From an uncultured Thermoanaerobaculia bacterium (GTDB lineage Bacteria > Acidobacteriota > Thermoanaerobaculia > Multivoradales > Multivoraceae), in NCBI GenBank assembly GCA_951812325.1, contig OX638294.1, positions 2,768,859 to 2,832,858 of the forward strand: a stretch of DNA of 64,000 nt. The letters are read 5' to 3'. Positions 2,767 to 47,538 of the stretch are shown here, piece after piece. Both the position numbers and the translations under genes were made by a program. How positions within the stretch are numbered: position 1 is the first letter of the stretch; every line of letters starts with the position of its first letter. Under the pieces are notes generated by a model, which was given only the letters and a program-made list of their open reading frames with translations, was not told the DNA's origin and made no database searches.

Positions 2767-3549
2767 TCACGGCGCCGCAGCGCTGCCGGAATCCGCAGAA
2801 AGACGAATGATACGCAGGAACGAGGCAGGATCAAGACTTGCGCCGCCAATGAGAAAGCCGTCGATGTCCGGGCGGCTCAGCAGATCGCGGCAATTTTCCG
2901 TGTTGACCGAGCCGCCGTAGAGGATGCGCGCGGCATCGCCCAGGCCGGCCCGGCGGTTGTTCAGCACGCTTCGCAGATGGCTGTGGACGGCCGCCGCAAT
3001 CCCGGGTGAAGCACTCAGTCCGGTGCCGATCGCCCACACCGGTTCATAGGCGAGCACGGCGCCGGCGCCAGCGCCCGCGTCGGCTGTGTCGAGCACCGCC
3101 AGGGCGCTGGCCAACTGGCCCTCCAGGACGGTCTCGGTCCTGCCCTGCTCACGTTGCTCCGGCGTTTCGCCGACGCACACGACGGGCGTCATGCCGCACC
3201 CGAGCGCTCGCTTCGCCTTGCGCGCCACGTCGGAGTTCGATTCGCCGTGGTACTGGCGGCGCTCCGAGTGCCCGGCCAGAACCCATGCGGCGCCGGCATC
3301 CCGAGCCTGGGCGGCGGCGACATCGCCGGTGTAGGCGCCCTTCTCTTCCCCATGCACGTCCTGCGCCCCCACCGAAACCCACCGCGGCATGGCGCGGGCA
3401 GCCAGGCCCAGGTGGACCGGGGTCGGGAACAGGACGATGTCGACCTCCGTCTCCGGCCCTGCTGCTGCCAGCGCTTCGGCGTAGGCGGCGACATCGCCTC
3501 CCAGGAGGTTCATTTTCCAGTTGCCGGCGATGATCGGTGTGCGCTTCAT
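2767..3549 (-). CDS. tpiA: Triose-phosphate isomerase
   Basis: A 260-residue TIM-barrel enzyme interconverting dihydroxyacetone phosphate and glyceraldehyde-3-phosphate in glycolysis and gluconeogenesis. Catalytic residues are visible: Lys12 in GNWKMN, His94 in AGHSERR and Glu169 in AYEPVWAIGTG. The phosphate-binding YGGSVN motif is near residue 213. Length is normal. It follows pgk with a 3-bp gap and precedes secG, so the three form an operon. A 62-bp piece of this gene (3333-3394) is found again at 9839-9900. Confidence 0.96.
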   Translation of the reverse strand: MKRTPIIAGNWKMNLLGGDVAAYAEALAAAGPETEVDIVLFPTPVHLGLAARAMPRWVSVGAQDVHGEEKGAYTGDVAAAQARDAGAAWVLAGHSERRQYHGESNSDVARKAKRALGCGMTPVVCVGETPEQREQGRTETVLEGQLASALAVLDTADAGAGAGAVLAYEPVWAIGTGLSASPGIAAAVHSHLRSVLNNRRAGLGDAARILYGGSVNTENCRDLLSRPDIDGFLIGGASLDPASFLRIIRLSADSGSAAAP

Positions 3550-45613: not shown

Positions 45614-46585
45614 CTACTCGGTTACCCAGGGCGTGCCGTCGAGGTGGGCCTGGTAGTGGTTTGCCAGCCCGGCCTTGCGGTGGCGGGAGGCGGCCCGGAA
45701 GTCGGGGTTCATCGTCATCTGGATGAAGGCCTTTCGGGTGGGGAAGAACATGATGGCGGCGGCGTGCCACGGGGGGGCGGAGGGTCCGATCATCACTTGC
45801 TCGACTGTCGTGCTGAAGGCGACGCGGCCTCCCAGGTCGGCAAGGACCTGGCCGGCGGCGGCAACGTACCTGGAGAAGGCCTCCTGGCCCGAGACGTTCG
45901 CGGCTTGTGTGCCGTACTCCTCGTCGGCTGGGCTGTACTGCGCGCGTTCGTTGAACTGGAACAGGTTGAGCGCGGCGACGGGCGTTTCGGGGTCGAGCGC
46001 GGCGAGAGTTGCGAGTTGACTGTCGTCAGGTTCGAATCTGGTGTTCAGGGCGGCTTCCTTTCGTGGAGGCTGGTCGGGCCGTGGGCGACCGGCAAGCTGG
46101 AGACTGCGCCGGTAGCTGGCGCCCTGCCCCGGGGTCTCGGTCACGGTGACCTCCACGACATCGATTTGATGGTGAAGGTGCGCCCATCGATCCCGGAGAC
46201 GCTGCCAGAGGAAGCGCGCGAGCGCCTCGACCGTCACGTTGGCGACGGGCAGCAGGACGACCTCCGGGGACGGGAACTCGTAGCGCCGCGAGTCGAAGAC
46301 CGCCGCCATCGTCTCACCGCGGTGGGTCAGTCCGAGGTGGGGACACTTCGCCGGCAGAAGGACCTTCTCGTCCAGGACGGCGCATTCGGCGCGGATATCC
46401 CGCTTCGCGGTGGTGGCGGGGACCAGGAAGTCCAGGTCATCGACCTCGGATCCGCTCAACTCGACCGTGACCCGGTAGTTGTGGCCGTGCAGCGGTTCCG
46501 CTTCGCTGTCGCCGAAGACAGTGAAGTGCGCGGCGGAGAACTTGAAGTCCTCCTTGCCGAGGCGAAGGGAAAACGTGCCGGACAC
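45614..46585 (-). CDS. Fusion of a 6-pyruvoyl-tetrahydropterin synthase-like domain with a DUF1330 domain
   Basis: A 323-residue two-domain protein. Residues 1-165 are PTPS/QueD-like: FKFSAAHF (zinc His20), LHGHNYRVTVEL (zinc His33 and His35), and a late NVTVEALARFLWQRL helix. The catalytic Cys expected four residues before HGH is Ala29, next to Glu30. That resembles Cys-less PTPS paralogues such as the PTPS-III group that acts on dihydroneopterin. Residues about 195-323 are DUF1330 (VAALNLFQFNERAQY, FSRYVAAAGQ, FPTRKAFIQMTMNPDFRAASRHRKAGL). Divergent folE supports a pterin role. The GTG start is at 46585. Confidence 0.82.
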   Translation of the reverse strand: MSGTFSLRLGKEDFKFSAAHFTVFGDSEAEPLHGHNYRVTVELSGSEVDDLDFLVPATTAKRDIRAECAVLDEKVLLPAKCPHLGLTHRGETMAAVFDSRRYEFPSPEVVLLPVANVTVEALARFLWQRLRDRWAHLHHQIDVVEVTVTETPGQGASYRRSLQLAGRPRPDQPPRKEAALNTRFEPDDSQLATLAALDPETPVAALNLFQFNERAQYSPADEEYGTQAANVSGQEAFSRYVAAAGQVLADLGGRVAFSTTVEQVMIGPSAPPWHAAAIMFFPTRKAFIQMTMNPDFRAASRHRKAGLANHYQAHLDGTPWVTE

Positions 46586-46620: not shown

Positions 46621-46848
46621 CTACAGCAGGTCGGCGACCGCGGACTCGACTTCGCCGTCGTCGGGGAAGCGGCCGAGTTGCCTCTTGGAGAACACGGATC
46701 GGCCGTCGAGGGCGACTTCGAAGACGCCGCCGCTGCCGTCGACCAGCTCGGAATCGAGGTTGAACCGCTCCTTCAACTGAGACGCCAGACCGGCGGCTCG
46801 GGGGCGGTAGTTTCACATCACGCAGTATTCGATCGTGACTCGGCTCAT
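46621..46848 (-). CDS. SelW/Rdx-family selenoprotein with in-frame UGA (CxxU)
   Basis: Read through one in-frame TGA (46815-46813), this is a 75-residue protein starting MSRVTIEYCVM-U-NYRPRAAGLASQ and ending AVADLL. It is a complete SelW-like (Rdx) thioredoxin-fold protein with the redox motif C9-V-M-U12. The segment GGVFEVALDGRSVFSKRQLGRFPDDGEVE is the conserved second half of the family. A hairpin with GGUCU in its loop lies just after the UGA. The family is a small redox protein with Cys or Sec at position U12. It precedes the PTPS-DUF1330 gene by 35 bp. A conventional gene caller would miss it. Confidence 0.85.
46779..46799 (-). promoter_or_regulatory. Bacterial SECIS-like hairpin
   Basis: Starting 13 nt after the UGA on the minus strand, GAGCCGCC-GGTCT-GGCGTCTC forms a stem of seven pairs with one C-U mismatch and an apical GGUCU. 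The E. coli fdhF SECIS has the same GGUCU in its SelB-binding loop. The loop begins 21 nt after the UGA, within the usual range. Confidence 0.75.
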
Positions 46849-46893: not shown

Positions 46894-47538
46894 GTGCCGA
46901 TGCGAGTCCTGGAGCCGGTTGAGACGATTGCGGAACGCGAGCGAAGGCAGCAGGAGCTTGCGGCAGCGAGCCCGGGCGTCGAGCGGGTGGAGCGTCTTGC
47001 GGAGCGCGTCCGCGAGGTGCTCGTCGAACTCGGCCTCGATCTGGACGAACCGAATCTGCGCACCACTCACGAGCGGGTGGCCCGGATGTATCTGGAGATG
47101 TTTCGCGGTCTCGACCAGGGGTCGCAGCCGCGGGTCACGACCTTCCCGAACGACGAGAACTACCGGGCGATGGTCATGGAGAAGAACATTCCCTTCTACT
47201 CCATGTGTTCGCATCACCTGGTGCCGTTCTACGGCCACGCGCACATCGCCTACGTGCCCGGCGACAAGATTCTGGGGCTGTCCAAGTTCGCGCGCATTCT
47301 CGAGTTCTACGCCAAGCGGCCGCAGCTCCAGGAACGGCTCACCGAGCAGGTGGTCAGCTTCCTCGAGGAGGAACTCCGGCCGCGCGGCGCGATGGTCGTG
47401 ATCGAGGCGCGCCACCTCTGTGTCGAGATGCGCGGCGTCGAGAAGTCCGGCGCGATGACGGTGACGTCGGCCCTCCGGGGCATCTTCCACGAGCGACCGA
47501 TCCGGCAGGAGTTCCTGGATCTCCTGAAGGTTCGTTGA
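46894..47538 (+). CDS. folE: GTP cyclohydrolase I
   Basis: A 214-residue enzyme converting GTP to 7,8-dihydroneopterin triphosphate, the first step of folate and pterin synthesis. Family marks are RTTHERVARMYLEMF, FYSMCSHHLVPFYGHAHIAYVPGDKILGLSKFARI (zinc Cys and His), and VVIEARHLCVEMRGVEKSGAMTVTSALRG (second zinc Cys). The GTG at 46894 is given; the ATG at 46900 is equally possible. It diverges from the selenoprotein gene by 45 bp and its stop overlaps the start of the GWxTD gene (TGATG). Confidence 0.95.
   Translation: MPMRVLEPVETIAERERRQQELAAASPGVERVERLAERVREVLVELGLDLDEPNLRTTHERVARMYLEMFRGLDQGSQPRVTTFPNDENYRAMVMEKNIPFYSMCSHHLVPFYGHAHIAYVPGDKILGLSKFARILEFYAKRPQLQERLTEQVVSFLEEELRPRGAMVVIEARHLCVEMRGVEKSGAMTVTSALRGIFHERPIRQEFLDLLKVR

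Follow-up and report, generated by a model that had tools for sequence, protein, structure and literature searches.

Is a short reading frame that a single TGA interrupts the relic of a broken gene, or an intact gene in which that codon is translated? This question is raised by the minus strand of the window, by which we mean the whole 64,000-nucleotide stretch of DNA from an uncultured Thermoanaerobaculia bacterium that was analysed here. An earlier note on this DNA had claimed that the strand can be read from an ATG at 46848 to a TAG at 46621, open but for one TGA at codon 12. Translation confirmed this reading: the frame contains only that one TGA, and its terminator is TAG. The gene and the codon in question are located as follows.

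46621..46848, minus strand: predicted selW-like (Rdx family) selenoprotein gene, 75 amino acids, ATG 46848 to TAG 46621 with TGA read as Sec; based on profiles, orthologues and pN/pS.
46815-46813, minus strand: in-frame TGA, codon 12, putative second redox residue of CVMU; based on translation and homologues.

When the TGA is written as U, the frame translates up to its TAG as MSRVTIEYCVMUNYRPRAAGLASQLKERFNLDSELVDGSGGVFEVALDGRSVFSKRQLGRFPDDGEVESAVADLL. It had also been claimed that nothing would appear here in a standard gene call, which is only partly right: a bare list of open reading frames gives a 51-residue fragment with a TTG start (46776-46621) in place of the whole gene, and the family is modelled in NCBIfam.

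Profile searches with the 75-residue product gave 69.3 bits for Pfam Rdx (PF10262, cutoff 22.6), 94.5 bits for NCBIfam NF041051, ‘SelT/SelW/SelH family (seleno)protein’ (cutoff 88), and 60.4 bits for TIGR02174 (cutoff 34.2). The Rdx and SelT/W/H profiles cover the product over its full length and above their curated cutoffs, and the first two scores bear out the claim that the residues around the TGA, and the remainder to the end of the protein, fit the SelW family. The motif at the TGA is of the CxxU type (CVMU), with the TGA aligned to the Cys codon (TGC) of Cys homologues. Among relatives of known structure, Cys forms including 2fa8 and 3dex were found with an E-value of 5e-10, aligned from residue 3 to 73-75 with a Cys under the TGA. 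The Cys-form Rdx structures (2fa8, 3dex, 2p0g and 2oka) share the family with the window protein over nearly its full length. However, they have Cys at the second redox position, where the window protein would have Sec; they are approximately three residues longer before the GG-F strand, and their chains are longer (103-108 residues). From these solved relatives, found by sequence, we infer a thioredoxin-like fold. No Cys paralogue of the protein was found in its own genome, where the window gene is the sole significant homologue.

The closest relatives of the gene are in metagenome-assembled genomes labelled Thermoanaerobaculia, Holophagales or Acidobacteria (83-96% identity), and remoter homologues occur in Thermodesulfovibrionia, Thermodesulfobacteriota, Planctomycetota, KSB1, Gemmatimonadota and Latescibacteria. 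Codon 12 is TGA in 27 of 28 genome loci and TGC in the remaining one, from Rhizobium. The earlier note had proposed a search for Cys homologues with Cys at this codon, and all aligned rows indeed show only Sec (TGA) or Cys (TGC) there. We also surveyed 247 Acidobacteriota genomes, sampled evenly. A selW-like match was found in 76 of them, of which 72 carry the TGA (counted as one TGA within each match, the CxxU position being read from aligned rows only) and four have no stop, all four having TGC. The survey shows SelW in Acidobacteriota to be overwhelmingly of the predicted Sec form. This agrees with the Sec-rich ratio in the Global Ocean Sampling metagenomes, where SelW-like proteins are the largest selenoprotein family, with 427 Sec and 56 Cys forms (PMC2398784). 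In addition, six Acidobacteriota genomes (G043, G219, G226, G109, G235 and G037) have, besides this match, another SelW-like one that contains a TGA and is more distant. One selW copy, at a contig edge (L036, 1-216), carries an additional TAG in frame, changed from AAG, 3' of the SECIS; this may be either an assembly error or a recent loss.

The distribution of the TGA bears on the simplest alternative, namely that the gene is a SelW pseudogene or a decaying gene whose Cys at codon 12 (TGC or TGT) mutated to a stop. Cys forms of the family do exist, and the TGA itself is the sole support for such decay, yet the same TGA is present in 72 genomes of the phylum as well as in Planctomycetota, Gemmatimonadota, KSB1 and others. 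Coding constraint, measured on 17 orthologues within the genus, likewise opposes decay. The variable sites 3' of the TGA number 14, 5 and 30 at codon positions 1, 2 and 3, and pN/pS after the TGA is 0.226 in the true frame versus 1.21 and 4.64 in the alternative frames, indicating that the frame past the TGA is under purifying selection. Identity is 92% between ATG and TAG versus 43% and 31% in the two 300-base flanks (an ungapped comparison that understates flank similarity), and this drop supports the placed start and stop. Given the conservation of the TGA, the purifying selection and a covarying hairpin 3' of the TGA (described below), we consider the pseudogene explanation refuted and assign it next to no probability. 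Chance is also excluded for the protein, because of its Rdx and NF041051 scores, the retention of TGA and frame across several phyla, and the low pN/pS. As read from these comparisons, the gene that appears to be broken by a stop is an intact gene for a predicted selenium-containing redox protein of the SelW family.

If the TGA is decoded as Sec, then the decoding machinery should be encoded in the same genome, and the earlier note had predicted selA, selB, selC and selD elsewhere in it. A single contig of 4.63 Mb contains the window, and selA, selB, selD and a tRNA-Sec with the UCA anticodon are all present in the genome. The matches to selA (434 bits), selB (313 bits plus its C-terminal piece, in an open frame of 745 residues) and selD (252 bits) are above their curated cutoffs, and the tRNA-Sec was found with 74.7 bits by Rfam and as tRNA-SeC with anticodon TCA by ARAGORN, its CCA end being encoded. 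The active site of SelD reads CGGCAAK, so SelD is of the Cys form. The selD match (G000:C1:4243727-4244662, L010) lies in an 814-residue open reading frame, the front half of which, judged by eye, resembles an NADH dehydrogenase-type (Ndh) protein. Ndh-SelD fusions with a CxxC motif have been described (PMC2398784), and this reading frame looks like them.

Among the surveyed genomes, selA was found in 69 of the 72 with the TGA form versus 92 of the 175 others (odds ratio 20.75, p 1.8e-12, Fisher test uncorrected for kinship). The three TGA genomes without selA all carry selB, so that the absence of selA is probably an assembly gap. Of the four Cys-form genomes, one (G056) has neither selA nor selB, and the other three have both. 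These distributions argue against readthrough or suppression of the UGA with an ordinary amino acid, for example Trp or Cys, in which no SECIS-directed Sec insertion would take place. Either selA or selB occurs in all 72 TGA-form genomes, Cys is the sole alternative residue seen, and the hairpin fits the bacterial SECIS model and covaries; we therefore regard readthrough as highly improbable.

Recoding of the UGA as Sec would also involve a SECIS element, and the earlier note had claimed a stem starting 13 nt after the UGA with GGUCU in its loop. Folding reproduced this hairpin, with the stem at 46799-46779 and the loop at 46791-46787.

46779..46799, minus strand: candidate SECIS hairpin, 13 nt past the TGA, the copy in the window having a single C-U mismatch; based on fold, covariation and covariance model.
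46787..46791, minus strand: apical loop GGUCU; based on fold and homologous sequences.

The SECIS of E. coli fdhF has the same apical loop, GGUCU, on a stem just past the UGA; the window hairpin differs from it in having a stem whose sequence is bound to that of the SelW coding region. The loop of 5 nt lies 21 nt from the UGA, on a stem of 4+3 bp around one mismatch (GAG-C-CGCC / GGCG-U-CUC). This internal C-U mismatch arose because Ala (GCT) became Ser (TCT) in the window copy, and the hairpin alone folds with -8.9 kcal/mol (range -8.9 to -10.4) versus -16.1 kcal/mol for the genus consensus, in which the mismatch is closed. The bacterial SECIS model has a loop of 3-9 nt with G in its first two positions, a stem of 4-16 bp, 16-37 nt from UGA to loop and an energy of at most -7.5 kcal/mol (PMC13188914), and the window hairpin agrees with it in loop, stem, spacing and energy.

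Could the hairpin be no more than a by-product, formed because the coding stretch here (A-A-G-L-A) is conserved and GC-rich, with the true SECIS lying elsewhere or being unneeded? Its energy is no better than that of shuffled sequence (z 0.34 to -0.70); these near-zero scores are consistent with such a by-product, and the case for the hairpin rests on covariation. Among 57 distinct homologous TGA sequences, some of them close relatives whose counts are not independent events, the loop is GGUCU in 26 and AGUCU in 13. The loop-closing pair 24-30, between two third codon bases, is paired in all 57, as C-G in 48 and G-C in nine and never mixed. Pair 21-33, again between third bases, is kept in 56 of the 57 as C-G, U-A, U-G, G-U or G-C. 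Most of these covarying changes are silent (GCC...CTG versus GCG...CTC), so that protein conservation does not explain them. In 31 rows selected for their diversity, the proportion of paired cells was 85.7%, whereas shuffles gave 72.8% and slid registers no more than 56.6%, and the covariation score was 0.416 versus 0.182 and at most 0.124, respectively; the signal was thus lost when the register was slid. Within the genus, none of seven third positions inside the hairpin varies, versus 30 of 56 elsewhere (p 0.011). A genome scan with SECIS covariance model R1 ranked the SelW hairpin as the top site (24.7 bits, E 0.3, 150 of 5785 candidates scored), and an Rfam search of the region gave chance matches only, below the gathering scores. 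With the silent third positions changing together, we give the by-product explanation very little credence. The SECIS-bearing DNA GCCGCCGGTCTGGCGG is identical among Acidobacteriota, Planctomycetota and Gemmatimonadota (L040, L041 and L043, near 3001-3060), which may reflect either double constraint or gene transfer.

We conclude that the locus is almost certainly a functional gene for a SelW-like (Rdx family) selenoprotein, with Sec predicted to be inserted at the UGA under the direction of SelB and the SECIS, and a probable thiol/selenol oxidoreductase as its product. Three observations weigh against this reading: the window hairpin does not fold better than shuffles, it has a mismatch that the genus consensus lacks, and the copy in L036 has the additional TAG. 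Bacterial Sec decoding via SelB, tRNA-Sec and SECIS is established (PMC1794560). Here, SelB carrying Sec-tRNA-Sec (UCA) would bind the GGUCU-loop hairpin just 3' of the UGA, and codon 12 would be read as Sec in place of termination. In the resulting 75-residue protein, which would adopt a thioredoxin-like fold, the CVMU redox pair would lie close to the N-terminus, and the protein would most likely act as a small thiol/selenol oxidoreductase. We infer Sec insertion, fold and redox role from the family, within which the protein is probably a CxxU thioredoxin-like oxidoreductase.

The neighbouring genes were also compared among relatives.

46894..47538, plus strand: folE (GTP cyclohydrolase I), divergent neighbour; Pfam PF01227, 216.8 bits.
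45614..46585, minus strand: PTPS/QueD-like protein with a C-terminal DUF1330 domain, downstream of selW; profile matches.

The selW gene lies head to head with folE in the genus and in some remoter relatives (L038 and L059). The gene downstream of selW varies between relatives, also within the genus, and we therefore rejected an operon link between selW and the PTPS gene. Around selW, the relatives compared showed no operon from which a substrate could be named. The DUF1330 domain of the PTPS/QueD-like protein was matched with 27.3 bits (E 4.7e-6); the PTPS at this place seems to be without it in some relatives.

Does this genus of Acidobacteriota have no other selenoprotein, or hardly any? 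If so, then the entire selenocysteine machinery would be kept for one 75-residue protein. In the scan of the genome (150 of 5785 candidates scored), 21 other sites were found, just one of which has a TGA at a suitable distance; we did not count that site, as its frame extends no further than 28 codons in each direction. The SECIS-model scan is weak in that other selenoproteins may have different SECIS sequences. The selenoprotein FdhA was not found in the genome, the three partial matches all being under the curated cutoff and having no internal stop. We consider such a solitary selenoprotein unlikely.

Among bacteria, selenoproteins of the SelW-like CxxU type (PF10262) form a family that is already established (PMC1794560, PMC2398784, PMC13188914), and the SELENOW-like entry for PF10262 is tabulated with CxxU (PMC13188914). 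The window gene shares with them the family, the CxxU motif, the position of Sec and a SECIS directly 3' of the UGA. There is no essential difference; what is new is the sequence, from an uncultured Acidobacteriota lineage. The gene is a real but fairly ordinary SelW member, and its biology is already known. It neatly illustrates how a selenoprotein gene would be overlooked or cut short in a routine gene list, and the silent compensatory changes in its putative SECIS provide support, from sequence alone, for a recoding element.
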